Of a stretch of DNA of 64,000 nucleotides, positions 6,953 to 52,947 are shown piece after piece. The notes under the pieces were generated by a model. The model was not told where the DNA came from, did no database searches, and was given only the letters and a program-made list of their open reading frames with translations. How positions within the stretch are numbered: position 1 is the stretch's first letter; every line of letters begins with the position of its first letter. The position numbers were made by a program, and so were the translations under genes. The stretch comes from Rhizobium sp. 9140 (GTDB lineage: Bacteria > Pseudomonadota > Alphaproteobacteria > Rhizobiales > Rhizobiaceae), in assembly GCF_900067135.1 (NCBI RefSeq), contig NZ_FJUR01000002.1:1105501-1169500 (forward strand). The letters run 5' to 3'.

Positions 6953-7810
6953 TCACGCCGCCATCGTCGTCGTACCGTAGGTGATGCCCTTCTCCTTCAG
7001 CCAGCGGCGATAGGCGATGGACGAGGCGTCGGCGCGCGTCGGGATCTCCGCGCGGGGCTCCATCGGCAAAAGGAGAGGACGCTGGTTCTCGAGGATGATC
7101 CGGTCCTGCAGGAAGATCAGTTGCTGGAACTGCACAAGCTCCGCGGTGGTCGAGACGTCGTCGATCAGGAACATCACCGGATGGGCGATGCAGCGATCGG
7201 GATCGAGCGGCTGGACGAACAGGCAGATCACGTCCCAGCGGTTGGCGGCATTCGGGCAGGTCTTGTAAAGCAGCGTCGCAAACGGAGTCATGACCCGGTA
7301 GATATAGTCGGTCATGATGCCGGATGTGGCAGACAGCGCTGCCTGCGGCTGAAAGAACTGGCAGTTGGTCGCCCAGACCTCGTCCACGTCGCGCCGGATC
7401 TCGGCATTGTAATGCAGCACCTCCGTGTGCGGTTCGGCGCCGAGAATATCCGTGTGGACGAAGGGAAAATGCGCCATATCGAGGAAATTCTCCACGATGC
7501 GCAAGCCGGAGGCGTGCACCGCCACGGTGCCGCAATTGACCACGCGCCGGTCCGCCTCGTCGGCCTCGGGCAGCGAGAACAGTCCGCCGGCCGGGGTGCC
7601 GGGCGTCGCCCAGAGCAGGCCGAAGCGGCGGATTGTCGGCAGCGGATCGTTGCGGCCCTCCGCCATGACGGTGATGGTGCCATCGCCTGTGCGCGTGACC
7701 GCGAGGTCCGTGCCGAGAAGCCGGCTCGTGGTCGTGCCGCAGGGCAGGTCCGCCTCGGTCGCCAGCGGATACCATTGATCGAGCGCGGCCTTGTCCGAAC
7801 AGGTGTTCAT
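6953..7810 (-). CDS. Rieske-type oxygenase catalytic subunit lacking the [2Fe-2S] site (NdmC-like), copy 1
   Basis: The 285-residue product has the mononuclear-iron motif of Rieske oxygenases, ENFLDMAHFPFVH, with N108, D111, H114 and H119; D236 in IFLQDRIILENQ is the likely third ligand. The N-terminus keeps the outer strands of a Rieske fold (QWYPLATEADLP...LLGTDLAVTR...RRFGLLWATPG), but the ~45 residues that normally carry CxH-x(15-17)-CxxH are missing, so it cannot hold its own cluster. Electrons must come from another protein, most simply the stand-alone Rieske protein at 13500. NdmC of P. putida CBB5 has the same architecture. It is the last gene of the minus-strand importer operon. A paralogue lies at 21863. 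Confidence 0.85.
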   Translation of the reverse strand: MNTCSDKAALDQWYPLATEADLPCGTTTSRLLGTDLAVTRTGDGTITVMAEGRNDPLPTIRRFGLLWATPGTPAGGLFSLPEADEADRRVVNCGTVAVHASGLRIVENFLDMAHFPFVHTDILGAEPHTEVLHYNAEIRRDVDEVWATNCQFFQPQAALSATSGIMTDYIYRVMTPFATLLYKTCPNAANRWDVICLFVQPLDPDRCIAHPVMFLIDDVSTTAELVQFQQLIFLQDRIILENQRPLLLPMEPRAEIPTRADASSIAYRRWLKEKGITYGTTTMAA

Positions 7811-7971
7811 GCGACGCCTCCTATTGGTCGTGGATCCGGTTCATCACGGTCTGATGCCCGGCCGTTCGTCTGTCGATACTCGGACACTATAGCCTGAACG
7901 GCCGGCGTGCGAACAGCGCCGCTAAAGGTCGCGACATGGACGATGTCTTTCACGGGTGGCGTGGACATCGG

Positions 7972-7999
7972 CAGTCTCCAGTCTCCAGTCTCCAGTCAC
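7972..7999. repeat. Heptanucleotide tandem repeat
   Basis: CAGTCTC is repeated three times without interruption and followed by the variant CAGTCAC. It sits directly at the permease stop codon (7996-7998) in the 185-bp gap before the downstream Rieske catalytic gene. It looks like a slippage-generated repeat. No further structure is clear in this gap. Confidence 0.7.
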
Positions 8000-8946
8000 C
8001 GGACATCGCGATAATAGGGCAGGCCGAGGGCGGCGGGGGCGGCCATGATGCGGCGCATACGCTGAAAGGCGAGCACCGGCACGATGATGAAGGCCACGGT
8101 GCCGAGATAGGGCAGCATGGAGAGGAAGGCAGGCGCCACCGGCCAGCCCCGCGCCTGCCCGACGAAGCCGAGCGCGGTGATGAAGCCGAACAGGAGGCCC
8201 GACAGCACGGCCGGGATCGGCCGGTAACCCGCAAAGATCACCAGCGCCACGGCGATCCAGCCGCGACCGGCCACCACGCCGTCCGACCAGGAGGGTACGA
8301 AGGTCAGGGTCAGATAAGCTCCGGCGCCCGCCGCAAGCGCCGAGCCGGCGGTGACATAGGCAAAGCGGATCAGCGTCACGGGAATGCCCGCCGCATCGGC
8401 CGCTGCCGGGTTCTCGCCGACGGCGCGCAGGTTCAGCCCGTGGCGGGTCCGGAACATCAGGATGGACAGCCCGACCGGCAGGATGATGTAGATCAGGTAG
8501 ACGAGGATGTTCTGCGAGAAGAACGCCTTGCCGAGAACGGGGAGGGTGCTGAAGATCGGCACCTCGACGCCCGGAAAGACGGCGCGGGCCGGCATGCCGG
8601 AATAGGCGCGGCCGATAGTGGAGGCGAGACCGCTGCCCATCAACGTCAGGGCGAGCCCGCATAGCACCTGGTTCGCGCGCAGGATAACGGTCGCAAAGGC
8701 AAACACCATGCCGAACAGCGCGCCGACGGCCAGCGCTGCCATAAAGCCGATGCTGGGTGAAGGCACGGCGGCGACAGTGGCGATCGCGGTCAGCGCGCCC
8801 ATCGCCATCAGACCCTCGACACCCAGATTGACGACGCCGACCCGCTCGGCCAGCACCTCGCCGAGAGCTGCCAGCGCCAGAACGCCGCCTGCGAGGAATG
8901 CCGTGGTGAAGAGGCCGGTGAGAAGATCCATCGTCTGCTCCTTCAC
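7996..8946 (-). CDS. ABC transporter permease, BMP/nucleoside (Nup/YufQ-like) type
   Basis: The 316-residue, strongly hydrophobic product begins MKEQTMDLLTGLFTTAFLAGGVLALAALGE and contains GVVNLGVEGLMAMGAL, the signature of the second permease of BMP-family nucleoside importers. GENPAAADAAGIPV is the conserved cytoplasmic loop that contacts the ATPase. It overlaps the upstream permease gene by ATGA (8943-8946), so the two inner-membrane subunits are translationally coupled. The substrate is likely a nucleoside or free purine/pyrimidine. Confidence 0.87.
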   Translation of the reverse strand: MKEQTMDLLTGLFTTAFLAGGVLALAALGEVLAERVGVVNLGVEGLMAMGALTAIATVAAVPSPSIGFMAALAVGALFGMVFAFATVILRANQVLCGLALTLMGSGLASTIGRAYSGMPARAVFPGVEVPIFSTLPVLGKAFFSQNILVYLIYIILPVGLSILMFRTRHGLNLRAVGENPAAADAAGIPVTLIRFAYVTAGSALAAGAGAYLTLTFVPSWSDGVVAGRGWIAVALVIFAGYRPIPAVLSGLLFGFITALGFVGQARGWPVAPAFLSMLPYLGTVAFIIVPVLAFQRMRRIMAAPAALGLPYYRDVR

Positions 8947-9983
8947 GCCGTGTCGCGCGTGATGCGGTAATGGGCGAGTTCGTCACCGATGGCGGTGAGA
9001 AACAGGATGAGCCCGGTGATCGCCAGCACCGCCGAGGTCGTCAGCCCCTGGGTCTGCAGGATGATGCCGGAGTTGAGGATGAAGGCCATCAGCGCGGCGG
9101 AAAAGACGACGCCGATGGCGGAGGAGCGTGCGAGCACGGCGACCATGATGCCGAGATAGCCGTAATTGTTGGAAATGCCGCCCTGCAACCGGTGAACCGT
9201 TCCCGCCACCTCCAGCATGCCGGCAAGGCCGGCGATCGCGCCCGACAGCAGCATGACGACGATCAAGTGTCGGCGCACCGGGATCCCCGCATATTTTGCC
9301 GCCGACGGGTTGGAGCCGACGAGGCGCACCTCGTAGCCCCAGCGCGAAAAGGCGAGACACAGGCCGACCGCGACGGCGACCAGAACCGCGATGGGCAGGC
9401 CCCAGTGAACCGAGCCCCAGAATTCGGGGATTTCAGCGGACATGCGCGGCGTCGCGGAATTGGCGGTGCGGTCGCGCCAGACGCTGGTGGAGACGTAGAA
9501 GACGAGGAGGATGGCGACGAAGTTGAGGAGCAGCGTGGTGATCAGTTCGTTGACATTGGCATAGGCGCGGGCCAGCGTCGGGATCAGGATCCACAGCGCG
9601 CCGCCCAGCAGCCCCGCCGCGAACATGGCGGGAAGGGTGAAAGCCGGCGGGCCGGGCACGAACAGGCCGACCACCGCCGCCCCGAAGGCGCCGGCATAGA
9701 ACTGGCCTTCGGCGCCGATATTCCAGGCGCCGATCTGTTGGGCGACGGCGACCGACAGGCCGGTCAGGATCAGCGGCGTGACGAGCAGCGCCAGATCCTC
9801 CAGGCCGAAACTAGAACTGAAGCTCGCGGAGATCACTTGCCAGCCGAGGTCGAGCGGATCGGCCCCGGTCGCCGCCAGGATGAGACCTGCGACGGCGAGG
9901 GCCAGCAGGATGGCGGCAGCACGCGCCGCAAAGGCGACGCCGGACGAGGCGGAGGGGATGCGCTGGAAGCGGAAGGTGGCCAT
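8943..9983 (-). CDS. ABC transporter permease, BMP/nucleoside (YufP-like) type
   Basis: The 346-residue product has about ten membrane segments. QIGAWNIGAEGQFYAGAFGAA and the loop VGSNPSAAKYAGIPVRRHL are conserved in the first permease of BMP-type importers. It starts at the ATG at 9983, 1 nt after the ATPase stop, and overlaps the next permease gene. Together with the neighbouring ATPase and binding protein it forms a complete importer. Confidence 0.87.
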   Translation of the reverse strand: MATFRFQRIPSASSGVAFAARAAAILLALAVAGLILAATGADPLDLGWQVISASFSSSFGLEDLALLVTPLILTGLSVAVAQQIGAWNIGAEGQFYAGAFGAAVVGLFVPGPPAFTLPAMFAAGLLGGALWILIPTLARAYANVNELITTLLLNFVAILLVFYVSTSVWRDRTANSATPRMSAEIPEFWGSVHWGLPIAVLVAVAVGLCLAFSRWGYEVRLVGSNPSAAKYAGIPVRRHLIVVMLLSGAIAGLAGMLEVAGTVHRLQGGISNNYGYLGIMVAVLARSSAIGVVFSAALMAFILNSGIILQTQGLTTSAVLAITGLILFLTAIGDELAHYRITRDTA

Positions 9984-9984
9984 G

Positions 9985-11508
9985 TCAGGCAGCTCCGGGG
10001 ATGCGCATGCGGCCGCCCATCATCAGGCCGATCTCGTCGATATCGGTCCTGTCGTTGTCGAGGATGCCCATGATCTTTCCCTCGTAGAGAACGGCAATGC
10101 GGTCCGACAGGTTGAGCAGCTCTTCCAACTCTTCGGAAATGAGGACGATGCCGGCGCCGGCATCGCGCAGCTCGACGATGTAACGCAGCATGGTGTTGAT
10201 CGCGCCGACGTCGAGGCCGCGGCTCGGATAGGCTGCGACGAGCACCTTGCTGGCGATGCGGATCTCGCGCCGCGCTACGAGCCGCTGCTGGTTTCCGCCT
10301 GAAAGGTTTCGCACGGGCATGCCGAAATCCGGAATGGCGACCTCGGCGGCAGCCGCAATCTCGCGGGCGAGCACCATGGCCGCGGCCGGTCGATAGGTGC
10401 CGCCCTGCGATACCGGCGGTCGCCTGTATTCCCGCATCACGGCGTTGACGGTGATGCTGAGCGCGGGCGCAAGGCCGCTGTGCAGTCTGTCTTCGGGAAT
10501 GTGGCCGATCCCGCCTTCGGCAAAGGCTGCGGGATCGCTCGCCGCAACCTCGCGGCCCTCGATCAGGATGCGCCCGGCGCTGGCAGGACGGATCCCGGTC
10601 AGCACCTGGCTCAGCTCGCGCTGCCCGTTGCCGGCAACACCCGCGATGCCCACGATCTCGCCGGCGCGGATCTCAAGCGAAATGTCGCTCAGCGCCAGAT
10701 GGCCGCCGTCGCCGATGGCGGACACGTTTTCGAGGCTCACCACCGGAGTTGCCGACACCGGGCGGGCGCCCGGCGCCCGCTGGCGCATGTCGGCAAGGAC
10801 GATATCGCGCCCGACCATGCGCCGCGCCAGCAGGCGGGGCGTGCAGTCGGCCGTGTTTTCGGTGGCGATCTTGCGGCCGCCGCGCAGGATCGAGACGCGG
10901 TCCGAGATCTCCAGAACCTCGTCCAGCTTGTGGCTGATGAAGATCACGGCATTGCCGGCCGCGGCGAACACCCGCAGCGCCTTGAAAAGTTCGCGTGCTT
11001 CGGCCGGCGTCAGTACCGCCGTCGGTTCGTCGAGGATCAGCACACGGGCATCGCGGGCCAGCACCCGCAGGATTTCCACGCGCTGCTGCTCGCCGGTCGA
11101 AAGGTCACTTACCCGTGCGCCGGGGCGGGTCGCCAGGTTGAACCGGGCAGCGAGCGCCTGCGTGCGCGCTTCCAGGACATGGGCGGAGGCCCGGCGCGGC
11201 GTGTCCGACCAGCCGAGATGGATGTTTTCGGCCACCGTGAAGGCCTGAACCAGCTTGAAATGCTGGTGGACCATGCCGATGCCGGCCGCGATCGCCTGCA
11301 TCGGCGTCGAAAACTGCTTCGCATAGCCGTCGATGATGATCTCGCCGGCATCCGGCTGGTAGATGCCGGTGAGGATGTTCATCAGCGTCGACTTGCCGGC
11401 GCCGTTCTCGCCGAGCAGTGCGTGGATCTCGCCTGGCATGACCTCCAGATGGACATTCTCGTTGGCGACGACGCCCGGAAAATACTTGGCGATCCCCCTC
11501 AACTGCAC
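9985..11508 (-). CDS. ABC transporter ATP-binding protein with two tandem ATPase domains (nucleoside/sugar type)
   Basis: Domain 1 has Walker A GENGAGKST, signature LSTGEQQRVEI and Walker B VLILDEPTAVLTP. Domain 2 has a degenerate Walker A (GVAGNGQRE), signature LSGGNQQRLVARRE and a Walker B (VLVAAYPSRGLDVGA) without the usual Asp-Glu. Such asymmetry is normal for YufO/XylG-type ATPases. The GTG at 11508 starts only seven residues before the first conserved strand (AKYFPGVVANENV). The frame remains open upstream without an ATG, so a different non-ATG start is possible. Confidence 0.87.
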   Translation of the reverse strand: MQLRGIAKYFPGVVANENVHLEVMPGEIHALLGENGAGKSTLMNILTGIYQPDAGEIIIDGYAKQFSTPMQAIAAGIGMVHQHFKLVQAFTVAENIHLGWSDTPRRASAHVLEARTQALAARFNLATRPGARVSDLSTGEQQRVEILRVLARDARVLILDEPTAVLTPAEARELFKALRVFAAAGNAVIFISHKLDEVLEISDRVSILRGGRKIATENTADCTPRLLARRMVGRDIVLADMRQRAPGARPVSATPVVSLENVSAIGDGGHLALSDISLEIRAGEIVGIAGVAGNGQRELSQVLTGIRPASAGRILIEGREVAASDPAAFAEGGIGHIPEDRLHSGLAPALSITVNAVMREYRRPPVSQGGTYRPAAAMVLAREIAAAAEVAIPDFGMPVRNLSGGNQQRLVARREIRIASKVLVAAYPSRGLDVGAINTMLRYIVELRDAGAGIVLISEELEELLNLSDRIAVLYEGKIMGILDNDRTDIDEIGLMMGGRMRIPGAA

Positions 11509-11709
11509 GAGAGGCGGCGTGCCGGGAGCGGGTTGGAAACGAGGTGCGTGAGGGGATGTCGACAGGGCCGGGAACCTTGTGGGCTGTGATGGTGGACGCG
11601 GGAGCGCTTTGGCTTCGGCAAGGCGGGCGAGGCCGGTTATAGGACCCGCCCCTTCCGGACCGCTTGTCGAGAAGCATGGGGCGGGATCGTCTTCACATGG
11701 TGCGGATCT

Positions 11710-12831
11710 TTAAGAGGTCAGCCCCGAAACGCCCTCGACGGACCAGTCCCAATTGTACAGTTCCAGTTCGGTCATCTTCTGCCCGGCAGCGACGCGGACC
11801 GTGCCGGTGGCATCCTTGATCTCGCCCTCGAACGGCGACCAGCCCCCGATGATCTTGTCGCGCACGGCGTCGGCGGCCTTGCCGACATCGGTAGGCACCT
11901 TCTCGCCCCACGTGTCGCGGTCGACGCCGGCACCCATGGCCAGCAGCGTCTCGCTCGGCGTCCAAGTGCCGGCCAGGCGCTTGCCGACCTGATCGACATA
12001 GAACTTCTTGAAGTCGATGATGACAGAGGAGACGTAGGAATTGGGGCCGTAGCGGCGGATGTCGGTGTTCCACATCGCAGCCCAGACGCCGCGCTTTTCG
12101 GCGACCTGCAGGTAGCCGGCCTCGTCCATGATGCCGAACAGGAAGTCGCAACCATTGTCGATCAGCGCCGTGCCGGCTTGGGTCGCGGCCTGCGGATCGA
12201 ACCAGGAATTGATGACGATGGTCTGGAGTGTCGCCTGAGGATTGACGGTGCGCGCACCCATCAGGAAGGCGTTTGTGGAGGCGTAGACGGACGCCACCGG
12301 GAAGGATGCGACGTAGCCGAGCTTGCCCGTCTTCGACAGGTGGCCGGCGGCCACGCCCAGCACATAGGTTGGATACCAGTGGGCAAGGTAGTACCAGCCC
12401 AGATTGTCCATGGTGATGTGGCCGTTGCATTCCAGGAACGCCACGTCCGTGGCGCGTTTGACGACCTCGTGCAGGAAGTCGCCGTTCGACGACGTGTCGA
12501 AGATCAGGTTGGCGCCTTCCGAGACGAACTGCCGATAGGTGCGCGTCGCATCGGCGGAATAGGGAATGTTCTCGACTTCGAGGATCTTCTTGAGCTTCGG
12601 ATAGGCTTCCTTGACGGCCAGCAGACCCTGATGGTGCGACCAGGTCCAGCCCTCGTCGGAAATGGGACCGACATGACCGAAGCCGATCACGGCGTCTTCT
12701 TCGGCAATAGCCGGAAGCGCGGTCGCCGCTAACGCCTGGCGGGCAAAGCCGGCCGGCAGCATCAGCGAGGCTGCTCCGACCGCGCTCATATTCAAGAAGC
12801 CGCGGCGGGAAAGTGTACGCAGGTCGATCAT
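11710..12831 (-). CDS. BMP-family periplasmic nucleobase/nucleoside-binding protein with Tat-type signal
   Basis: The start at 12831 gives a 373-residue protein with an N-terminal SRRGFLNMS motif followed by a hydrophobic segment, typical of Tat export. The mature region has the BMP-family pattern (VIGFGHVGPISDEGWTWSHHQGLLAVKEAYP, FDTSSNGDFLHEVVKRA, NGCDFLFGIMDEAGYLQVAEKRG). The ~200-bp gap to the ATPase shows no gene. As the first gene of the minus-strand operon it probably captures a purine- or pyrimidine-like ligand in the periplasm. Confidence 0.88.
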   Translation of the reverse strand: MIDLRTLSRRGFLNMSAVGAASLMLPAGFARQALAATALPAIAEEDAVIGFGHVGPISDEGWTWSHHQGLLAVKEAYPKLKKILEVENIPYSADATRTYRQFVSEGANLIFDTSSNGDFLHEVVKRATDVAFLECNGHITMDNLGWYYLAHWYPTYVLGVAAGHLSKTGKLGYVASFPVASVYASTNAFLMGARTVNPQATLQTIVINSWFDPQAATQAGTALIDNGCDFLFGIMDEAGYLQVAEKRGVWAAMWNTDIRRYGPNSYVSSVIIDFKKFYVDQVGKRLAGTWTPSETLLAMGAGVDRDTWGEKVPTDVGKAADAVRDKIIGGWSPFEGEIKDATGTVRVAAGQKMTELELYNWDWSVEGVSGLTS

Positions 12832-13238
12832 GGCATCCCCTTCAGGTCGTTCTCTTGAGCGACGTCGCGCCCAGCCTTGTTCTGAAGCAACTCGCGTGCC
12901 AGTTGGCGCTTCCCTGCGGATCCCGCATCTGCAATGCGCCGGCCAACATAGGAAATTCGAGGAGAAGGCACGGACCTGACGCAAGTTTCCCCAGTCCTGT
13001 CGTGCCGCAAAGCCTTTCGGCGTTGGGAAACCCAGCCTCAAGAGGCAGGGTTGTTCGGTATCAACGAGTTTTTCACAGCAAGGCCGATGTGTAAAAGGCA
13101 ACACCGGATCGGTGCGGGCGACTTGAATACTGCGGCGAAAAATGCCTAGAATGCCCAAAAGAAAGACGTGCAATCTTTTTATGCAGTCTGGTGAAATTTG
13201 GGGCTTCGAGGATTGGTTTTGCAAGGGATGGGACGCCG
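12832..13238. promoter_or_regulatory. Divergent control region between importer operon and catabolic operon
   Basis: This 407-bp interval contains no convincing gene and separates two divergent operons, so both promoters should lie here. A short palindrome CACCGGATCGGTG is at 13102-13114. No clear LysR-type T-N11-A box or copy of the GntR motif was found. An AAGGGATGG ribosome site precedes the first plus-strand gene. Confidence 0.45.
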
Positions 13239-13478: not shown

Positions 13479-13499
13479 GCGCATGAACGGGAGCGGCAC

Positions 13500-14141
13500 A
13501 TGAAACTGGAAGAGGGGTGGGTGCCGGTCGCCCTGTCGTCGTCGATCGAGGCGGGAACCTCGGCGGGCACCGTCGTCTTCGGCAGCGAGATCGTCGTCTG
13601 GCGCGACACCGGCGGCACGGCGCATGTCTGGGAGGATCGCTGCCCGCATCGCGGCATGCGCCTGTCGTTCGGCTTCGTGCGCGGCGACCACATCGCCTGT
13701 CTTTACCACGGCTGGCAGTACGACGCGGCCGGACAGTGTCGCTATATCCCGGCCCATCCGAAGCTCGACGTGCCGCAGACCATCAAGGTACCGCTCTACC
13801 GGGTCGCGGAAACATACGGCATCGTCTGGGCGACCGCCTCTGCGGATGCGCTTCTGCCGGATTTTGGGGCGGATAAAGGCTTCGCCCCGGTGCGTAGCAT
13901 CTCGATCGACTGTGCAGCGTCCGCTGTCTTGGCGGTATTGGGGCTCGAAGGTCCCGCGGCGGTAATCACAGTGGATGGAGACACGCTGTTGGTGGCTGTG
14001 CAGGCGGTCATTTCTGAACGCACATGCGCCCATGTCGTCCTCCTCGGCGCGGAGCCCCATCCGGTCGCGCGGCAGAAGCATCATGCGCGCTGGGCGGAAG
14101 CGTTGCGCTTCCGGCTGGAAACCACGAGCGAGGTGGCCTGA
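13500..14141 (+). CDS. Stand-alone Rieske [2Fe-2S] protein with C-terminal extension
   Basis: Residues 1-115 form a Rieske domain with C48-x-H50 (DRCPHRG) and C67-x2-H70 (ACLYHGW), exactly the ligands missing from the two catalytic subunits at 6953 and 21863. The domain resembles the N-terminal part of vanillate-demethylase-type oxygenases rather than a small ferredoxin. The last ~80 residues (from about FAPVRSISIDCAAS) contain no mononuclear-iron motif and are not recognised. It probably relays electrons to the catalytic subunits in trans, like the extra Rieske domain of NdmD. Its stop overlaps the GST-like gene start (TGATG). Confidence 0.85.
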   Translation: MKLEEGWVPVALSSSIEAGTSAGTVVFGSEIVVWRDTGGTAHVWEDRCPHRGMRLSFGFVRGDHIACLYHGWQYDAAGQCRYIPAHPKLDVPQTIKVPLYRVAETYGIVWATASADALLPDFGADKGFAPVRSISIDCAASAVLAVLGLEGPAAVITVDGDTLLVAVQAVISERTCAHVVLLGAEPHPVARQKHHARWAEALRFRLETTSEVA

Positions 14142-14773
14142 TGGCGCAGCCGACGCTCTACCATTACGAACTGGACGAGGCGAGCTATCGCGTCCGCCTG
14201 CTGCTGTCGTTGCTCCGGCGCGACGTCGATCCGGTCGCAGTCGATATGTTTCCCGGGCAGGAGCATGTGAAGCCGACCATGCTGGCGCTCAATCCGCAGG
14301 GCACGCTGCCGGTTCTCAAACACGACGGGCTTGTTCTGCACGGCACGGCAGCGATCCTGATGTATCTTGCCAAGGCCTACGACCCGGCGAGCCGCTTTCT
14401 GCCGGAGGCGCCGGCCGAATTCGGCGCCGTCGTTACTTGGCTCGGCTTTTCCGAAACCGCGCTCGCACCGGCGTTCCAGGCGCGGCTGAACGCGATGTTC
14501 GCAACTCCCGGCGATGCGGACGCCTTGCGTCGACGTGCACGCGCGGCATTCCGTACCATGGACGACCACATGACGATGCGGCATTTCGACGGGCAGGACT
14601 GGTTCTGTGGCGATGGGGCCACCCTTGCCGACATCGCCCTCTTTCCCTCTTTTGCCCTCAGCCGCGACTACGGCATCGATCATGACGCGTTCCCCGCCTT
14701 GCGCCGCTGGATACGCCGCGTCCGCGCGCTCGACGGCTTCATCACGATGCCGGGCATCCCGGATTATCATTAG
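14141..14773 (+). CDS. Glutathione S-transferase-like protein (NdmE-like candidate)
   Basis: The 210-residue product has a GST N-terminal thioredoxin domain (TLYHYELDEASYRVRLLLSLL, then ALNPQGTLPVLKHDGLVLHGTAAILMYLA, with the cis-Pro and the glutathione-binding segment). It also has an all-helical C-terminal domain with GDGATLADIALFPSF. It is coupled to the Rieske gene by a TGATG overlap. In P. putida CBB5 a GST-like protein (NdmE) is a structural partner of the split N7-demethylase, so a scaffold role is plausible; a true glutathione-dependent reaction remains possible. GST family membership is firm, the NdmE role is inferred from context. Confidence 0.85.
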   Translation: MAQPTLYHYELDEASYRVRLLLSLLRRDVDPVAVDMFPGQEHVKPTMLALNPQGTLPVLKHDGLVLHGTAAILMYLAKAYDPASRFLPEAPAEFGAVVTWLGFSETALAPAFQARLNAMFATPGDADALRRRARAAFRTMDDHMTMRHFDGQDWFCGDGATLADIALFPSFALSRDYGIDHDAFPALRRWIRRVRALDGFITMPGIPDYH

Positions 14774-14867
14774 GGCTGGACGATCGTGAGGATCGGCCGG
14801 TTCTGCGGGAGAAAAGACAGACAGACCAACCCGTCACGCTCATCTCAACCCGTTCCCGGAGATCGCC

Positions 14868-16667
14868 ATGCAGCCTCTCACCCGCTTTTCTGTCCAGCCA
14901 CTCTCCACAATGACGCGCAGACTTGCCGATGTCGCGTCCGGGCGCCGCGATCCCGATCTCGTCATCGGGGATGCGCGGGTGCTCTCCACGTATTCCGAGC
15001 GGATCCTGCCCGAGCGGGAGATCTGGATCTCGGGTGGACGCATCGCCGCCATCAAACCCGCGGGAAGTCACAAAGGCGCGGCGAGGCGTTACGATGCGCG
15101 GGGCGGCATTCTCGCGCCGGGGCTGGTCGATCCGCATATCCATATCGAATCCAGCATGGTCACGGCCTGCGCCTATGCCGAGGCGGCGCTTCTCAACGGC
15201 ACGACGACGATCTTCTGCGACAGCCACGAGATCGGTAATGTCATGGACGTGGCGGGTGTGGAGGCGATGCTGGAGGATGCGCGCCATGCGCCCTTGTCGA
15301 TCTTCCTCACCGTTCCGAGCACGGTTCCCGCCACTTCGCCCGAGCTTGAAACCGCCGGCGGCGACCTGACGCCGGGCAAGATCGCCGCGCTGTTCGATGC
15401 ATGGCCGGAAGCTGTGGCCCTCGGCGAGAAGATGGATTTCGTGCCCGTCGCCATGGGCGACGAGCGCGCCCATGCCATCCTGGCGGCGGCGCTCTCGCGC
15501 GGCCGGCCGGTCTCCGGCCATGTCTATGGCCGCGAATTCGTCGCCGCCTATGCCGCCTCCGGTGTCACCGACACCCACGAAGCCATCGACCGGGAGATCG
15601 CCGACGACTTGCTGGAGGCCGGGTTATGGCTGTTCCTGCGCGGCGGCCCGCCGACCACCGCCTGGCACTCCCTGCCGCATGCGATCCGCGCTATCACCGA
15701 GCTTGGCGCGTCCCACAAACGCGTCGCCGTCTGCACCGACGACCGTGATGCCGACGACCTCCTGTACTTCGGGCTCGACTGGGTGGTGCGCGAAGCGGTG
15801 AAGGCCGGCATGACGCCCGAACAGGCCTGGTCGATGGGCTCGCTGCATGGCGCCACCCGCTTCGGCATGGACGGCGAGATCGGCGGCATGGGCGGCGGGC
15901 GCCGCGCCGACCTCGTGCTTCTGAGCGACGATCTCGCCCCGATCAGCACCTGGTATGGCGGCGAACTGGTGGTCGACCAGCGGTCGATCACCCCCGTGCT
16001 GGAGGAGACCCTGTCGCGCCCCTACCGCTATCCGGACGCCGCCTATAGCACCGTGAAACTGCCCAAGGGCCTGAAGCTCACGCCCGATCTGCCGACCGAG
16101 ACGGTGATCGCCCACACGATCCGCACGGAACTGCCCGGCATCATGCTCGGCCATGTCCCCGTCGAACTCGAACCCGCCAACGACTGGCAGTCCCATTTCG
16201 ACCGCCATGGCCTCTGCTTCGTCACCGTGGTGGAGCGGCACGGCAAATCGGACGGGAATGTCGGTCATGGCCTGCTCAGCAATTTCAGCCTCAAGCGTGG
16301 TGCGGTCGCCTCCTCGGTCGGCCATGACAGCCACAACATCATCGTCGCCGGTGCCAGCGAGGCCGACATGCAGGTGGCGCTGGACGCGATTGCGGCTGTG
16401 CAGGGCGGGGTCTGCGTCGTCATGGACGGGGTGGTGACCGCCATGGTGGAACTGCCGGTCGCGGGGCTTCTCTCCGATAAGCGTGTCCATGCGGTGGCGG
16501 AAGAGGTGAAACGTCTGAAAATAGAATGGGAAAAGGCCGGCTGCACCATTCCCTATATGGGTTTCAACCTCATTCCCTTGTCGGTCATTCCGGAAATCCG
16601 CATCACCGACAAGGGCAATGTACTGGTGCCGCAGATGGCGCTGCAGCCTCTGTTCGAGCCGGTCTAA
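14868..16667 (+). CDS. Adenine deaminase-family amidohydrolase
   Basis: The 599-residue length and motifs fit the AdeC family: [21 protein letters not shown] (HxH metal site), [19 protein letters not shown] and [14 protein letters not shown], with the C-terminal domain [19 protein letters not shown]. The family replaces the 6-amino group of adenine by oxygen, giving hypoxanthine and ammonia. Some members prefer other 6-substituted purines. The start at 14868 follows GGAGATCGCC; a later ATG at 14910 is possible. It lies 94 nt after the GST-like gene and its stop overlaps the LysR gene (TAATG). The context suggests deamination of an imported or N-dealkylated purine. Confidence 0.87.
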
Positions 16668-17605
16668 TGGACCCCTACCGGCTCGGCCTCGTCGCCATCC
16701 GTATCCATTATTTCCAGCTGGTGGCACGGCTGGGCTCGATGCGGCAAGCCGCCCAGATGCTCAATGTCGCGCCCTCCTCGGTCAGCCGCATCATCAAGCA
16801 GCTGGAAGAGGAACTCGGCCTGCCGCTGTTCGAGCGGGTGCGCCAGCGGCTGAAGTTGACGAGCGCCGGCGAGTTGATGCTCTACCACGCCCGCCAGAGC
16901 TTTTCCGAGCTCGACCGCGCCTGCAACGAGATCAACGAACTGCATGGCCTGCATCGGGGTACGGTGTCGGTGGCGATTATCGAAAGCGTGTCGCGCGGGC
17001 TGATGCCGGAGGCGCTCGAGGCCTTCTGGCGATCGCATCCCGGCATCGCCGTCGATGTGCGGGTGATGAGTTCTCAGCAGGTGGCCAATGCCGTGGCCGA
17101 AGGCGAATGCGATCTCGGCCTCGTCTTCGATATCCGGGTGCCGCGCAATGTGCGCCGTATCGGCATGGTGTCGCTGCCGCTCGGCGTGGTCACCCGGCCC
17201 AACCACCGGCTGGCCGGAAAGGCCGACCTGCGCATGTCCGACCTCGCCGGCGAGCGTGTGATCCTGTCGGATGCGAGCCTGACGCTCGGCGCCTGGGTGG
17301 AGGAGGCCTTCGGGCGCACCTTTGCCGAGTTGAACCAGCGCGCCCGCACCAATTCCATTGCGCTGATGACGGACCTTGCCAAGCGCGATCTCGGGCTCGT
17401 GCTCCAGACCCGCGTCGGCATCGAGCAGGATATTGCCGAGAGCACCCTGGGCTTCGTGCCGCTGCGCGATCCGAAGCTGTCGCTGCGCAAGCTCATGCTG
17501 CTTTCGCGCACCGAAAAGGAAATGTCGCCGGCCTCCTCTGCGCTCGGCCGCGTGCTCGGAGGACATCTCGACCGCCTGCGCGACGCCACCGGGGAAGCTG
17601 GGTGA
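16667..17605 (+). CDS. LysR-family transcriptional regulator
   Basis: The 312-residue protein has the N-terminal HTH (HYFQLVARLGSMRQAAQMLNVAPSSVSRIIKQLEEELGLPLFER) and a LysR substrate-binding domain (GTVSVAIIESVSRGLMPEALEAF, GECDLGLVFDIRVP). The ATG at 16667 overlaps the adenine-deaminase stop. It lies inside the operon rather than divergent from it, which is less common for LysR regulators. It probably senses a purine-type intermediate and activates this cluster; the target site was not identified. Confidence 0.88.
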   Translation: MDPYRLGLVAIRIHYFQLVARLGSMRQAAQMLNVAPSSVSRIIKQLEEELGLPLFERVRQRLKLTSAGELMLYHARQSFSELDRACNEINELHGLHRGTVSVAIIESVSRGLMPEALEAFWRSHPGIAVDVRVMSSQQVANAVAEGECDLGLVFDIRVPRNVRRIGMVSLPLGVVTRPNHRLAGKADLRMSDLAGERVILSDASLTLGAWVEEAFGRTFAELNQRARTNSIALMTDLAKRDLGLVLQTRVGIEQDIAESTLGFVPLRDPKLSLRKLMLLSRTEKEMSPASSALGRVLGGHLDRLRDATGEAG

Positions 17606-17698
17606 GATGTTGCGTTGAGCGCACCGCTTCGTAACGAAATCAAGGACTATTCGGAACACCGCGTTCTTGCCACCCTACTCCTCTCGAAAGGATGCATC

Positions 17699-18199
17699 AT
17701 GAAGCAATCGGCCGTCGATGCGGTGATCCGTGGGTTGAAGAAGGCGGGCGTCAGCATCGTCTGCTATCTGCCGGACTCGCTGTTCAAGGAACTCTACCCG
17801 GCGCTTGACGCCGACCCCGACATCCGCACCATCCGCGTCACCAACGAGGGCGAGGGCGCGGCCATCTGCGGCGGCGTATTCCTGTCGGGCAAGCGCGCCG
17901 CGCTGGTGATGGAAAATTCCGGCCTGCGCGCCGCCGTCGAACCGCTCGCCCGCATGGGTCTGGGAGCCGGCATTCCGGTCGTCATGCTCATGAGCTATCG
18001 CGGCGAGTTGGGCGAGAACAACTGGTGGGCGATCCCCCACGGCATCACCATGGAGCCGGTGCTTGACGCGCTGCGCATTCCCTTCCGCGTGGTGCGCGAG
18101 GAAGACGCCATCGAGCGGGCGATCGTCGATGCCTATCATTGGTCCTATGCCGGTTACTACCATTCGGCGATCGCGCTTGGCGGGGAGATCGTGCGATGA
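17699..18199 (+). CDS. ThDP-dependent decarboxylase, Pyr-domain subunit (ComD/phosphonopyruvate-decarboxylase-like)
   Basis: This 166-residue protein is a single ThDP Pyr-type domain: AVIRGLKKAGVSIVCYLPDSLFKELYP, then RVTNEGEGAAICGGVFLSGK with the Glu that activates the cofactor, and MENSGLRAAVEPLARM. The start at 17699 follows GAAAGGATG. The stop overlaps the next gene (ATGA), which encodes the complementary PP domain, so the two chains should form one active site, as in sulfopyruvate decarboxylase ComDE. It probably decarboxylates a 2-oxo acid formed late in the pathway; the substrate is not evident. Confidence 0.8.
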   Translation: MKQSAVDAVIRGLKKAGVSIVCYLPDSLFKELYPALDADPDIRTIRVTNEGEGAAICGGVFLSGKRAALVMENSGLRAAVEPLARMGLGAGIPVVMLMSYRGELGENNWWAIPHGITMEPVLDALRIPFRVVREEDAIERAIVDAYHWSYAGYYHSAIALGGEIVR

Positions 18200-18804
18200 A
18201 GCGTTTCGACTGCATGACGGCGCTTGCCGCCCGGCTGAAGGACGAATTGGTAATCCTGTCGCTCGGCGGCAGCGTCGACGAGTGGTACAATGCCGCCCCG
18301 CACATGCGCACGGCGAGCCTGTTCCAGCAGCAGCTCGGCTGCGTCACGCCGCAGGCCTTCGGGCTCGCCGCCGGCCTGCCGCACCGGCGGGTGGTCTCGC
18401 TCGATACCGATGGTGGCATGATGTTCAACCTCGGCATTCTGGCGACCCTCGGCAACGAGCAGCCGAAGAACCTGTTCGTCGTCGTCTGGGACAACGAGTG
18501 CTACCAGTCGATCGGCGGCCCTCCGACTCACACGGCCTTCGGCCGCGTCGACATCGCCGCCATCGCGCGCGGCTGCGGCGTGGACAATGCGTTTACCGCC
18601 CGAACGGTGGAAGAATTCGACGCCCATTGCCAGGCCGGCCTGTCTTCCGACGTGCCCTATCTGGTCGTCGCCAAGGTGGCCGGCAGCGTGCAGCCGGACA
18701 TCCGGCGCAAGCATAGCGACGGGCGTGAGGACAAGTATATCTTCGTGCGCCATGTGGAGGCCAGCGAAAGCGTGGTCATCATGGGGCCGAGCGAGCACAA
18801 CTAG
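18196..18804 (+). CDS. ThDP-dependent decarboxylase, PP-domain subunit (ComE-like)
   Basis: The 202-residue chain carries the diphosphate-binding motif in the form SLDTDGGMMFNLGI...VVWDNECY, a variant of GDG-x(24-27)-NN with Thr in place of the first Gly. FQQQLGCVTPQAFGLAAGLPH precedes it as in sulfopyruvate and phosphonopyruvate decarboxylases. It overlaps the Pyr-domain gene and ends 3 nt before the GMC oxidoreductase. The C-terminal ~45 residues (from about RKHSDGREDKYIF) extend beyond the core domain. Confidence 0.8.
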   Translation: MKRFDCMTALAARLKDELVILSLGGSVDEWYNAAPHMRTASLFQQQLGCVTPQAFGLAAGLPHRRVVSLDTDGGMMFNLGILATLGNEQPKNLFVVVWDNECYQSIGGPPTHTAFGRVDIAAIARGCGVDNAFTARTVEEFDAHCQAGLSSDVPYLVVAKVAGSVQPDIRRKHSDGREDKYIFVRHVEASESVVIMGPSEHN

Positions 18805-18807
18805 ACC

Positions 18808-20373
18808 ATGGCGCACCCGACCATCATGCTCGTCCGCACGCTTGCTCCCGCTTACGACTATATCGTCGTCGGCTCGGGTTCGGGCGGCTGTGCCGTGGCG
18901 CGCCGGCTGGTCGAGGGGTCGGATGCGACCGTGCTCCTGATCGAGGCCGGGCAGGCCGGTTTCGATGTCGCGGCGCTGGACGATCCCGCCGCCTGGGCGC
19001 CGCTGGGGCGTGGCACCTACGACTGGGGTTACGATTACGCGCCGACGGACCGGGTGAACGGGCGGACGATCGGCATTCCGCGCGGCAAGGTGCTGGGTGG
19101 CTCGTCGGCGATCAATGCCATGATGTGGTATCGCGGCCATCCGATGGACTACGACGCGTGGGAAGAGGCCGGATGCGAGGGTTGGTCCTTTGCCGAGGTG
19201 CTGCCCTTCTTCAAGCGCGCGGAGGACTGGGAGGACGGCGAGACAGCGCTGCGAGGCGCTGGAGGCCCCCTGCGCATCGAGCGCGGCGCGCCCGTTCATC
19301 CGGTCGCCGGCGCTATGCTGGGCGGCGCGGCGGAGCTCGGCATTCCGGTCATCGACGATCCGAACGGGCCTGATAACGAAGGGGCGGCGATCGCCAATTT
19401 CAATATTTCGGGCGGCAAGCGCTGGAGTTCGGCGACGGGCTATCTCCGGCCGATCCTTGCGCACCCGCGCCTGACGGTGCTGACCGGGTCGCTCGCGGTC
19501 CGTCTCGGCTTCGCGCACGGCCGCTGCGTCGGCGTTCATCATCTGGTCGAAGGGCGCCTGTGCGAGACGCGCGCCACCAAGCAGGTCGTACTCGCACTCG
19601 GCGCCATCGACACGCCGCGCCTCCTCATGCAATCGGGCATCGGCGATCCGGCGGAGCTCTCCCGGCTCGGCGTGGATGTCCTCGCCGCGCTGCCCGGCGT
19701 CGGGCGCAATTTGCAGGATCATCCGCTGGTCCAGTCCTGCGTGTTCCGGGCGAGGCAACCGCTGGGGCCGGTCGTCGGCAATGGCGGCGGGACCATGATC
19801 AACTGGAAATCGTCGGCCGCCCTGCCGCAGGCGGACCTTCATGCCTTTCCGATCCAGGGCAACGGTGCGGAGGCGCGCATTCGTGAGCTTCACGACCTCT
19901 CCGGCGAGGTCTTCTCCATCGGCTGCGGCCTGATGCGTTCCAAAAGCATCGGTCATCTGCGGTTGCTCGGTGCCGAGCCCGGCGCTCGGATGGAGATCCA
20001 GCCGAATTACCTGGCTGAACAGGCCGATCTCGATGCGCTGGTCATCTCGGTGGAAACCGTGTTGGACCTCGTGCAGACCCGCGCCTATGCCGACTGGTTC
20101 GGTGGCCATCTCGCGCCGATCCCAAGGCTCTCTCGCCGCGAGATCGTCGCTTATATCCGCAATGCCTGCTCGACCTTCTTCCACGTCTGCGGCACCTGCG
20201 CCATGGGCGCGGGCGAGATGGCGGTGACGGACGGCCGCCTGCGGGTGCGGGGCGTCGAGGGCCTGACCATCGCGGATGCCTCGGTGATCCCGATCATTCC
20301 CACCTGCAACACCCATGCACCGGTCACGATGATCGGCGAACGCGCGGCCGACTTTCTGCTGCGAGCGGCGTGA
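18808..20373 (+). CDS. GMC-family FAD-dependent alcohol oxidoreductase
   Basis: The 521-residue protein has the ADP-binding motif YDYIVVGSGSGGCAVARRL, the GMC signature 1 region PRGKVLGGSSAINAMMWYRG and signature 2 region LALGAIDTPRLLMQSGIG. The C-terminal catalytic part has FFHVCGTCAMG and the end motif ADASVIPIIPTCNTHAPVTMIGERAADFLL. Both catalytic positions (His in HVCGTCAMG, and Asn/His in TCNTHAP) are retained. It should oxidise an alcohol to an aldehyde. Together with the aldehyde dehydrogenase at 26402 it could process a side chain or hydroxymethyl product of the oxygenase. Confidence 0.88.
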   Translation: MAHPTIMLVRTLAPAYDYIVVGSGSGGCAVARRLVEGSDATVLLIEAGQAGFDVAALDDPAAWAPLGRGTYDWGYDYAPTDRVNGRTIGIPRGKVLGGSSAINAMMWYRGHPMDYDAWEEAGCEGWSFAEVLPFFKRAEDWEDGETALRGAGGPLRIERGAPVHPVAGAMLGGAAELGIPVIDDPNGPDNEGAAIANFNISGGKRWSSATGYLRPILAHPRLTVLTGSLAVRLGFAHGRCVGVHHLVEGRLCETRATKQVVLALGAIDTPRLLMQSGIGDPAELSRLGVDVLAALPGVGRNLQDHPLVQSCVFRARQPLGPVVGNGGGTMINWKSSAALPQADLHAFPIQGNGAEARIRELHDLSGEVFSIGCGLMRSKSIGHLRLLGAEPGARMEIQPNYLAEQADLDALVISVETVLDLVQTRAYADWFGGHLAPIPRLSRREIVAYIRNACSTFFHVCGTCAMGAGEMAVTDGRLRVRGVEGLTIADASVIPIIPTCNTHAPVTMIGERAADFLLRAA

Positions 20374-20414
20374 GACCCATGACTGACAGACCCTCAACCG
20401 GAACGGGACAGAGA

Positions 20415-21800
20415 ATGGCAACGGACAAGCAGATCATCGCCGGCGACACGCTCCTGACCATGGACGCCGCAAACAGAGTGATTGCGGGTGGCGCCGTGTT
20501 GATCGAGGACGGCCGCATCCTGGCCGTAGGGCCGGTGGATACGTTGACAGCCGTCAACGCCCAGGTGCCGGTCAAGAGGATGACGAACTGCCTGCTGATG
20601 CCCGGCCTCGTCAATGCGCACGCCCATTCCGGATTTCTCCGCGGGACCGCCGAACATCTGCCGGTCTGGGACTGGCTGACCCTGCACATCAACCCCATGC
20701 ACCGCATGCTGCGCCCGGAGGAAGCCGAGGCGGCTTCCTTTCTCTGCTACGCGGAATCCGTGCTCGGCGGCACGACGACAGTGGTCGACATGTGGCGCTT
20801 CATGGAGGGAAGTGCGCGTGCGGCGGAGATCGTCGGTAACCGGCTGGTGGCGGTTCCCTATGTCGGCGAACACCCGGATTACGACTATTTCGACACGCTC
20901 GATATGAATGAGGCTATGCTTCAGACATGGCACCGCAAGGCCGGCGGCCGCGTCAATGTCTGGGTCGGGCTGGAGCATCTGTTCTATGCGGACGAAGCCG
21001 GCCAGCAGCGCGCCATCGACCTTGCGAAACGCTACGATACCGGTTTCCACACCCATTGCAGCGAGGCACAGATCGAGCTTGCGGAATTCGACAGGCGTTA
21101 TGGCAAGCGCCCGATGTTCGCCCTGAAGGAGCTCGGCTTCTTCGAGGCGCCGCGCACCATGATCGCCCACGGCGTCTGGCTCGATGCGTCCGAAATCGAC
21201 CTGATCTCGAACCATGCCGTCTCCGTCGCCCACAATCCGGTGAGCAATATGAAGCTGGCAAGCGGCATCGCGCTGGTGGCCGATATGCTCGCCGCGGGCG
21301 TGCCGGTCGGCATCGGCACGGACGGCGAGAAGGAGAACAACAATTTCGATATGTTCGAGGAGATGAAGGTGACCTCCCTCCTCGGCAAGCTGAAAGACCT
21401 CGACGCCGCCGCGATGGACAGCTGGGACGTGCTGCGCATGGCGACGATCACTGGCGCGCGGGCCATTGGGCTTGACCACGAGATCGGATCGCTGGAAGCC
21501 GGCAAGCGCGCCGACCTGATCGCCGTGCGCACCGACACGCCGCGCATGACGCCGGTCTTTTCCGACGGTCCCTATTTCAACCTGCAGCACAATCTGGTCC
21601 ACGCCGTGCGCGGCGGCGATGTCCGCCTGACCATGGTGGACGGCAGGATCCTGGCTGAGGACGGTGTGCTGAAAACCGCCGACCTCGACCACATCATCGC
21701 CGACATCCACCGCCTCGCTCCACCCCATTTCGCCCGCCGTGCAGCCTGGCTCGCGGAGAACAGCGAAGGCACGGCGCAGTGGACGAAAGCGGGGCAATGA
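20415..21800 (+). CDS. Metal-dependent amidohydrolase, MTA/SAH deaminase-TrzA/AtzB-like
   Basis: The 461-residue enzyme shows the subtype-III metal site: LLMPGLVNAHAHSGFLRG (HxH), FHTHCSEAQIELAEF, MIAHGVWLDASEIDLI and GIGTDGEKENNNFDMFEEMK with the catalytic Asp. These features place it with deaminases of S-adenosylhomocysteine, guanine-like and s-triazine substrates. It probably removes an exocyclic amino group from a purine or pyrimidine. The start at 20415 is chosen for the alignment to the family; an upstream ATG at 20379 would add 12 residues. The next frame overlaps its stop. Confidence 0.83.
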   Translation: MATDKQIIAGDTLLTMDAANRVIAGGAVLIEDGRILAVGPVDTLTAVNAQVPVKRMTNCLLMPGLVNAHAHSGFLRGTAEHLPVWDWLTLHINPMHRMLRPEEAEAASFLCYAESVLGGTTTVVDMWRFMEGSARAAEIVGNRLVAVPYVGEHPDYDYFDTLDMNEAMLQTWHRKAGGRVNVWVGLEHLFYADEAGQQRAIDLAKRYDTGFHTHCSEAQIELAEFDRRYGKRPMFALKELGFFEAPRTMIAHGVWLDASEIDLISNHAVSVAHNPVSNMKLASGIALVADMLAAGVPVGIGTDGEKENNNFDMFEEMKVTSLLGKLKDLDAAAMDSWDVLRMATITGARAIGLDHEIGSLEAGKRADLIAVRTDTPRMTPVFSDGPYFNLQHNLVHAVRGGDVRLTMVDGRILAEDGVLKTADLDHIIADIHRLAPPHFARRAAWLAENSEGTAQWTKAGQ

Positions 21801-21862
21801 CGGGACCGGCCGCCGGTTGCGGAGCATTCCGAACACCGGCAAAGGGCAATGGAGCGAGACAG

Positions 21863-22717
21863 GTGGCAAAGACGACCGACAGTGCAGCGCTCGATGAATG
21901 GTATGCGGTCGAAACAGCGGCCGACATGGGGACCGCGCCCGTTTTCACCCGTCTGCTCGGGCAGGACATCATTGTGTCGCGCGGCGCCGATGGCGTCACC
22001 GTCCGCGAGGCGCCTGCCGGCCCGCCGCTGCCGGTGCGGGAGAAATACGGTTGCGTGTGGACGACGCTCGGCACGCCGCGTCGGGACATTTTCGATATTT
22101 CGGAGGCGCTGGAGACCGATCGCCGGTTCGTGCCCTGCGGCTGGGTGACAATGCGTGCCTCCGGCTTGCGGGTGGTGGAGAACTTTCTCGACATGGCGCA
22201 TTTCCCCTTCGTCCATGCCGATATTCTGGGCGCCGAGCCGAACACGGAGGTGCCGAGCTACCTCAGCGAGATCCGCCGCGACGTGGACGAGGTGTGGGCG
22301 ACCAACTGCACCTTCTTCCAGCCGCGCATCGCCGCCACCGAGAGCGAGGGTGGCTTCGTGCAGCTAACCTACCGGGTGCCGATGCCCTTCGTGGTCATGC
22401 TCTACCGCGTCTGTCCCACGGCCCCCGACCGGCTCGACGCCATCGCGTTGTTTATCCAGCCGATCGAGGAGGATCTCTGCCGGGCACAGCCGGTCATGTA
22501 TCTGGTGGATACCGCTTCCACCCAGACCTCGCTTCTGCATTTCGAGCAGGTGATTTTCCTGCAGGACCGCATCATCGTAGAGAACCAGCGCCCGCTGCTC
22601 CTGCCGATGGAGCCCCGGCGGGAAATTCCGACCCGCGCCGATTCCTCCTCCATCGCTTATCGCCGCTGGCTGAAGGAAAAGGGCCTGCGCTTCGGCACCG
22701 TTGCCGGGGCAGGGTGA
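21863..22717 (+). CDS. Rieske-type oxygenase catalytic subunit lacking the [2Fe-2S] site (NdmC-like), copy 2
   Basis: This is a paralogue of the product at 6953, sharing ENFLDMAHFPFVH, EIRRDVDEVWATNC, IFLQDRII.ENQRPLLLPMEPR and IPTRADSSSIAYRRWLKEKG. The mononuclear-iron ligands are intact while the CxH/CxxH cluster loops are deleted, again leaving only the outer Rieske-fold strands. The GTG at 21863, preceded by GGAG, is preferred because it aligns exactly with the start of the paralogue; an ATG at 21797 overlapping the previous stop is the alternative. It ends 2 nt before the dehydrogenase gene. Two differing copies suggest two substrates or positions of N-dealkylation. Confidence 0.84.
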   Translation: MAKTTDSAALDEWYAVETAADMGTAPVFTRLLGQDIIVSRGADGVTVREAPAGPPLPVREKYGCVWTTLGTPRRDIFDISEALETDRRFVPCGWVTMRASGLRVVENFLDMAHFPFVHADILGAEPNTEVPSYLSEIRRDVDEVWATNCTFFQPRIAATESEGGFVQLTYRVPMPFVVMLYRVCPTAPDRLDAIALFIQPIEEDLCRAQPVMYLVDTASTQTSLLHFEQVIFLQDRIIVENQRPLLLPMEPRREIPTRADSSSIAYRRWLKEKGLRFGTVAGAG

Positions 22718-22719
22718 CG

Positions 22720-33658: not shown

Positions 33659-33772
33659 CAGGGCCCATCGCAAGTGTGACAAAGACGGTCGGTAGCCACA
33701 TGACGCCCGATTGGCGGCCCTGTGAACCGCCCCGGCTTTGCCGGAGACCCCAACTCGTGAGAAGTAGGGTCT

Positions 33773-35043: not shown

Positions 35044-35138
35044 CTTAAACCAAACGGTCTCCGGTCTAGCCGGGGCGGTTCACAAGCTTCTCAAGCTTCC
35101 CCGCCTTGAAAGGATTTGAACCGACGTCTGTTTAGTCT

Positions 35139-52897: not shown

Positions 52898-52947
52898 AGA
52901 CCCTACTTCTCACGAGTTGGGGTCTCCGGCAAAGCCGGGGCGGTTCA

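Follow-up and report, generated by a model that had tools for sequence, protein, structure and literature searches.

A probable split Rieske oxygenase with a free Rieske protein and two catalytic paralogues in Rhizobium sp. 9140

Rieske oxygenases normally carry both of their metal centres in one chain. This study concerns a 64,000-nucleotide stretch of Rhizobium sp. 9140 (contig NZ_FJUR01000002.1, positions 1,105,501 to 1,169,500; hereafter the window, numbered from its first letter) in which the [2Fe-2S] cluster site and the mononuclear iron site lie on separate proteins. The window is located on contig C2 of the 5.4-Mb genome (G000). It encodes two NdmC-like catalytic subunits, which we call C1 and C2, a free Rieske protein (R), and an NdmE-like protein with a glutathione S-transferase (GST) fold (G). 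Taken as a whole, these genes are best explained, and we think with high probability, as a split oxygenase of the Rieske non-heme iron class, of the same kind as NdmC/NdmD/NdmE but with a Rieske unit that stands as a separate protein.

Metal-site motifs and the GST-like neighbour

The C1 gene (6953..7810, minus strand) encodes 285 amino acids and the C2 gene (21863..22717, plus strand, GTG start) encodes 284; the two proteins are paralogues with 59% identity. Both matched the VanA_C domain (PF19112) in Pfam, with 78.9 bits for C1 and 61.1 bits for C2 against a cut-off of 23.5. A motif check found NFLDMAHFPFVH in both proteins and CxH..CxxH in neither; the iron motif of C1 is N108-x2-D111-x2-H114-x4-H119. 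The Rieske profile PF00355 gave a sub-threshold match in C1 (12.2 bits, residues 12–49, ahead of the cluster-loop site) and no match at E≤1 in C2, so the profile search detected no complete Rieske motif in either. The two methods thus agreed with a preliminary description of this DNA, which had assigned C1 and C2 an iron site without the [2Fe-2S] loops. The clean deletion of ~45 residues that it reported proved to be a real gap, measured as 49 residues in C2 and 48 in C1 against one full-length relative (L012:3560-4591), with both sides still aligning.

The pattern held among the best 120 of the 4451 C homologues: the iron motif was present in 120/120 and the cluster motif in 0/120. Residues D110, H113, H118, and D235 (C2 numbering) were invariant in 10 of 10 C sequences in one alignment (A1) and 25 of 25 in another (A5). 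By analogy, we take H113, H118, and D235 to be the probable iron ligands and D110 to be the probable bridging Asp. When the C1, C2, R, and G genes were compared with those of G094 and Rhizobium tumorigenes, third codon positions held 55–77% of the differences in seven of the eight comparisons; the bias was weaker for R against R. tumorigenes (95 of 200 differences).

The R gene (13500..14141, plus strand) encodes 213 amino acids, with cluster ligands C48, H50, C67, and H70. R matched PF00355 at 85.2 bits, Pfam found no catalytic domain match, and the motif check found no iron motif, as the preliminary description had stated. Among the window R and 119 listed homologues (of 1794), all 120 had the cluster motif and none had the iron motif, and the four ligands were invariant in 52 of 52 R sequences (alignment A6). 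Because these complementary motif sets hold in 120/120 C and 120/120 R proteins, the split arrangement is not a matter of chance. The ligand sets lie on separate, co-occurring proteins, and neither motif set shares a chain with the other as in an ordinary full-length Rieske oxygenase. The nearest named R is that of Rhizobium sp. PP-CC-3A-592 (91%). The Rieske domain of R matched those of the oxygenases SxtDIOX, SxtT, and NdmA (1e-22 to 4e-18, best with SxtDIOX/SxtT) and gave poorer matches to Rieske ferredoxins (9e-7 to 5e-4).

R ends after a linker-like tail and has no NdmD-type reductase fusion. It is thus the free protein described previously, but its tail is not without relatives: residues ~114–213 show homology to the NdmD linker, the segment that joins the Rieske domain of NdmD-like proteins to their reductase domain (probability 96, P 2e-9; 0/100 column shuffles scored as high), and the tail is probably a catalytic-domain relic.

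The G gene (14141..14773, plus strand) begins with an ATG that overlaps the stop codon of R (TGATG), and its product matches GST domains in Pfam. GSTs usually bind glutathione through a Glu-Ser pair. The window G has Gly in place of the Glu of this pair. Of 93 rows of window-class G proteins, 69 had Gly here and 11 had Glu (58 and 10, respectively, of 81 distinct sequences), the fused-type and two ndm-type GSTs had Asp, and the R. etli type kept Glu in 12 of 14. By analogy, this pattern fits a structural role for G like that proposed for NdmE in the available text of PMC4408171 and PMC10380055. A 302-amino-acid protein with Rieske and GST parts (P0204) was rejected as support for an R-GST fusion, since frame errors seem to account for its junction and its short end. 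The preliminary description had overlooked G, and its inventory of three proteins was therefore incomplete; all three were found where it had placed them, although it had omitted that C1 is on the minus strand.

Distribution and relationship to NdmCDE

The family survey covered 199 genomes of the window's family, with C accepted at E≤1e-60 and P0002-like Rieske proteins at E≤1e-25. C was found in 43 of these genomes. A P0002-like Rieske protein was found in 32, as a free protein in 31 and as a 613-amino-acid fusion in one (G066). All 31 genomes with free R also had C, and free R occurred in 0 of the 156 genomes without C (Fisher p 8e-27, with the relatedness of genomes not corrected for). The 12 C genomes without free R all had a fused NdmD-like Rieske-reductase (D) beside C. 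A GST gene lay within the C locus in 42 of the 43 C genomes; none was seen in the C locus of G185, which is on a short contig. A scan of GTDB contigs gave 559 loci with a relative. Genes of the best 80, which lie on 75 contigs, were named from their top BLAST hit at E≤1e-12. C without the cluster motif was present in all 80, R in 76, and GST in 76, with R and GST adjacent on the same strand in 71; counted per contig, R and GST were each present on 71. The split arrangement is a conserved type, not the lone oddity that it had first appeared to be. The available text of PMC4408171, where NdmCDE is described as very unique, had already mentioned NdmCDE relatives of unknown function from Sinorhizobium and Mesorhizobium.

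Two C and one R were found together in 11 of the 31 free-R genomes, and the remaining 20 had one free-R-type C (E≤1e-60). Of the 13 fused loci in the family, 12 had a tandem pair of C genes ahead of a single D. Because of these two-C/one-R genomes and two-C/one-D loci, R is probably common to both C. The earlier proposal of a split oxygenase with a trans-acting Rieske protein serving two paralogues therefore stands in outline, with the sharing itself probable from the co-occurrence in 11/31.

Two trees gave the same division between free and fused types. A C tree of 97 rows (three from loci in which no R was seen; the ndm-like loci L154 and L155 included, no outgroup) placed every one of the 32 fused-type C sequences on the same side of a 100/99 branch, and a Rieske-domain tree of 53 sequences gave the same split at 100/99. 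The free-R C and the C of L154/L155 fell on opposite sides of a 100/99 branch, with uncertain rooting. C duplications were separate in the free and fused branches, and the pairing of two C with one Rieske unit therefore arose independently in each.

The nearest known system is NdmCDE, the 7-methylxanthine N7-demethylase of Pseudomonas putida CBB5, which belongs to caffeine degradation. As described in the available text of PMC10380055, NdmC lacks the cluster, NdmE is structural, and the proteins form a 3:3:3 complex. The CBB5 sequences were represented in identity and tree comparisons by proteins of L154 (Paraburkholderia caffeinilytica) and L155 (P. putida MT178), which are ndm-like by gene order and by frm genes as given in the accessible part of PMC4408171. 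Identities to these proteins were 42–48% for C1 and C2, 36% for R, and 38–39% for G. The window resembles NdmCDE in having an iron-only catalytic subunit (by sequence motif), a Rieske domain in trans, an adjoining GST-like NdmE homologue, and a purine/nucleobase gene context. It differs in that R is free rather than fused to a reductase, no reductase is linked, there are two catalytic subunits, no frmA/frmB match lies alongside, C and the Rieske domain belong to a separate lineage in both trees, and a BMP-type ATP-binding cassette (ABC) transporter and other accessory enzymes are present. The choice of NdmC/NdmD as the nearest parallel was sound, and the likeness goes further than had been noticed, because an NdmE-like GST is also adjacent to R. 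No split or cluster-less Rieske oxygenase beyond the Ndm work was found in the open-licence literature.

Other relatives show how the arrangement varies. The NdmCDE-like clusters of Sinorhizobium (L014, L015) and the 13 fused loci of the family have C, Rieske, and GST genes, usually a BMP-type transporter, and often two C per Rieske unit as in the window; they differ in that the Rieske domain is fused to a reductase and the C paralogues come from a separate duplication. The R. etli p42c type (L013) and the Paracoccus alcaliphilus type (L017) have free R, C, GST, and a BMP transporter as in the window, together with an amidohydrolase or 8-oxoguanine deaminase, but only one C per locus. The Paracoccus type, like G067 and G179, has free R with a linked VanB-type reductase and is intermediate between free and fused. 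NdmCDE thus becomes one member of a broad family whose architecture takes three forms: free, free with a linked reductase, and fused. In the solved oxygenases NdmA/NdmB and SxtT/SxtDIOX, C aligns to the catalytic and R to the Rieske domain, but both centres are on one polypeptide. HpxD, a molybdenum-cofactor-independent xanthine hydroxylase named in the plasmid annotation, is a distant relative from purine catabolism with 25–30% identity to C2.

Several loci are of interest for their gene content. Genome G160 holds both architectures, a free-R C2 cluster (L141) and a fused C-C-D-E cluster (L152). In nine loci (L085, L087, L089, L090, L095, L100, L102, L104, and L107) only GST, R, and C1 were recognised, with no transporter or purine genes; the triad in L087 adjoins genes for a D-2-hydroxyacid dehydrogenase and an enoyl-CoA hydratase, which give no hint of the substrate. 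C2-type genes with 64–65% identity to C2 were found in two actinobacterial assemblies, Rhodococcus sp. CH91 (L074) and Rhodococcus sp. JCM 9791 (L096), either by horizontal transfer or through assembly contamination.

Neighbouring genes and possible substrate

Beside C1, and also on the minus strand, lie the genes of a BMP-type uptake system. They comprise two ABC transporter permeases (7996..8946, an open reading frame with an R. tumorigenes gene at the same place, and 8943..9983), an ATP-binding protein (9985..11508; this and the second permease were named by position in R. tumorigenes), and a BMP/PnrA-family solute-binding protein (PF02608; 11710..12861, start codon uncertain) related to AtzT. 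On the plus strand, G is followed by an amidohydrolase of the adenine deaminase family (14868..16667). Its sole solved relative at E≤1e-30 was adenine deaminase 2 (3nqb), and its score of 338 bits is under the NCBIfam adenine deaminase cut-off of 472.5. Then follow a LysR-family regulator (16670..17605), the alpha half of a thiamine pyrophosphate (TPP) enzyme (TPP_enzyme_N; 17699..18199), its beta half (TPP_enzyme_C; 18196..18804; among solved proteins, closest to a putative phosphonopyruvate decarboxylase beta subunit), a GMC-family oxidoreductase (18808..20373), and an amidohydrolase of the deaminase/chlorohydrolase group (20370..21800). After C2, on the same strand, are a single-chain molybdenum hydroxylase that combines FAD-binding and molybdopterin domains (22714..25911; similar to xanthine dehydrogenase and nicotinate dehydrogenase, with solved relatives sought via the R. 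tumorigenes homologue), a [2Fe-2S] (Fer2) protein presumed to be its subunit (25908..26405), and an aldehyde dehydrogenase (26402..27916).

Plasmid pRt1078 of R. tumorigenes carries almost the same set of genes, except that a guanine deaminase gene adjoins C1 and the adenine-deaminase-like gene is missing from between GST and LysR. Gene counts were made for 40 C1-centred and 40 C2 loci with 10-kb flanks; C2 may fall just outside a C1-centred locus. The C1-centred loci contained a BMP-type binding protein in 30 of 40 and a guanine deaminase in 25 of 40. The C2 loci contained the TPP halves in 36, the GMC oxidoreductase in 38, the amidohydrolase in 36, the molybdenum hydroxylase in 34, and the aldehyde dehydrogenase in 30.

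AtzT binds guanine at about 110 nM according to the available text of PMC6834077. The window-type binding protein keeps the aromatic clamp (Trp for Tyr45, and Trp194), and the R. etli type keeps the guanine contacts Glu165, Phe98, and Asn218 in 14 of 14. In the window type these contacts are altered, and the transported ligand is therefore not simply guanine, which was rejected as a candidate. The imported substrate is probably a purine-like aromatic base other than guanine, and the pathway looks like an undescribed catabolism of such a compound. An idea that the cluster serves cytokinin degradation found no support in a single literature search.

Genes for formaldehyde handling were sought as frmA/frmB matches at E≤1e-40. 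None was present in the 64-kb window or in any of the 80 best GTDB loci; within the family, such matches lay near 7 of 13 fused loci, and frmA-like matches lay near 2 of 30 other free-R loci (L122, L129). Because formaldehyde genes occur near fused loci and rarely near free-R loci, hydroxylation or the release of a larger aldehyde seems a likelier reaction here than simple N-demethylation.

Other features of the window were also recorded. Next to C1, 3267-6660 encodes a RutA-type pyrimidine monooxygenase (627 bits, over the cut-off), an amidase resembling AtzE, and an isochorismatase whose score falls well short of the RutB cut-off, either a partial or an alternative set for pyrimidine ring opening. 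A reverse transcriptase-like reading frame, presumably of a group II intron, occurs in two copies (28676-30205 and 49934-51463) with 1529 of 1530 bases identical. Perfect inverted repeats at 33723-34563 and 52107-52947 (841 nucleotides) and at 34559-35082 and 49336-49859 (524 nucleotides) suggest that mobile elements were recently active, or that an inversion took place, in the window's right half.

Proposed mechanism, alternatives, and origin

In the mechanism that we propose, the BMP-type ABC transporter encoded next to C1 would bring a purine-like base into the cell. R, which would hold the [2Fe-2S] cluster, would be reduced by an unlinked NAD(P)H reductase, and electrons would pass from R across a protein interface to the bridging Asp of C and on to the iron. 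C1 and C2 would hold the substrate pocket and the mononuclear iron, where activated O2 would oxidise the aromatic base, probably by N-dealkylation or hydroxylation. As proposed for NdmE, G would keep C and R in one assembly. C1 and C2 may carry out two different oxidations of one pathway with a common R/G unit. For NdmA/B, the accessible text of PMC10380055 gives a cluster-to-iron distance of 12.1 angstrom, between neighbouring subunits. The new elements here are a free Rieske unit that two catalytic subunits apparently have in common, the breadth of its occurrence, and the likely decay of two metal centres in complementary fashion; the NdmCDE precedent was known. With the centres on separate proteins, electron transfer, partner recognition, and substrate specificity can be studied and swapped independently, and the family permits a test of whether one Rieske unit drives several catalytic subunits.

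For the electron donor, no VanB-type reductase was among the best hits in the window, as the preliminary description had stated for a reductase in general, or in any of the 80 best GTDB loci. Candidates were found elsewhere in the genome: a VanB-type reductase (L020, contig C2, 780.6–781.6 kb) beside another Rieske oxygenase, a GbcB-like protein (L008), a PF14759 protein (L018), and a weak PF00175 match below the cut-off (L009). No type that was tested was universal to free-R genomes. With cut-offs of E≤1e-30 for VanB-type and E≤1e-60 for GbcB-type, VanB-type matches were present in 19 of the 31 (in G160 the match is its fused D). L020 was rejected as general partner, since its homologue in G094, a genome of the same genus, reaches only 38% and 12 of the 31 have none, and L008 was rejected as universal donor on similar grounds. 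Because VanB-type is present in only 19 of the 31 and four have neither type, the electrons probably come from a housekeeping reductase or from donors that vary among species.

Several observations weigh against the interpretation as a split oxygenase or against parts of it. No reductase is linked, and two of the four free-R genomes with neither type are 99% complete. A distance of 14 kb separates the C1 gene from the C2 gene, and they do not share a strand. Four of the 80 best GTDB loci lacked R in the flanks examined, two of them on truncated or short contigs. The guanine contacts Glu165, Phe98, and Asn218 of AtzT are not kept in the window-type binding protein. With a distant full-length outgroup and without L154/L155, support for the fused group was lower, at 97/82; the tree program warned of long branches meeting, and the rooting is uncertain. 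Finally, a direct comparison of the R tail with C was weak (P 0.044; GST control 0.063; 1/100 shuffles each), and was set aside as stand-alone evidence.

The alternative that survives best, though we consider it improbable, is that these genes encode a true methylxanthine N-demethylase of the NdmCDE type, which releases formaldehyde. The 42–48% identity of C1 and C2 to the NdmC-position proteins of the frm-bearing L154 and L155 is in its favour, as are the kinship of the transporter to a guanine-binding one, the guanine deaminase genes near C1, and the frmA-like matches at L122 and L129; formaldehyde could also be handled by genes elsewhere. It is opposed by the 100/99 branch that sets the free-R C lineage apart from C of ndm-like loci, by the absence of frmA/frmB matches from the 80 loci and the window compared with 7/13 fused loci, and by the aldehyde dehydrogenase of the C2 loci. 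Distinctly less probable still is that C1 and C2 are subunits of one hetero-oligomeric oxygenase, not two enzymes using a common R. The genomes with both C and one R, the tandem C before one D, and an NdmA/NdmB heterohexamer reported in the available text of PMC10380055 would agree with it. Against it, 20 of the 31 free-R genomes have a single free-R-type C, C1 and C2 both retain complete iron motifs, and their contexts differ (a transporter and often guanine deaminase for C1; TPP, GMC, molybdenum hydroxylase, and aldehyde dehydrogenase genes for C2). That R is an ordinary Rieske ferredoxin for other full-length oxygenases, with C1 and C2 non-catalytic or otherwise supplied with electrons, is very improbable: R is a stand-alone Rieske protein and the genome has three more PF00355 matches in frames of 419–457 amino acids and one in a 197-amino-acid frame, but free R is confined to genomes with C, its Rieske domain is closer to oxygenases than to ferredoxins, and its lineage splits in the same way as that of C.

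Returning to the split oxygenase, profile comparisons suggest how it may have originated. The NdmD linker was colinear with the C-terminal part of the C catalytic domain (probability 70, P 4e-5, 0/200 shuffles; GST control P 0.57), and when whole R was compared with C, the aligned region began in the Rieske strands and reached the first part of the catalytic domain (P 1.5e-6). By a transitive argument the R tail would be a relic of a degenerate catalytic domain, a reading of moderate strength because the direct match of tail to C is weak and the linker bridges the two. C and R are best explained, from these comparisons, as complementary degenerate descendants of full-length oxygenases. At about even odds, duplicated full-length oxygenases decayed in complementary ways into a modular system of one Rieske/GST unit, two interchangeable C, and a housekeeping reductase, with the NdmD fusion as a second branch. 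The shrunken catalytic domain would then survive as the R tail and the NdmD linker, and the modular system would be common in Alphaproteobacteria, with its interchangeable C taking different substrates. NdmD-like genes were also found annotated in pieces, in P. putida 1290 (plasmid pPp1290; L153 10859-12614) and in Cupriavidus sp. EM10 (L156), where they are probably decayed or frame-disrupted.

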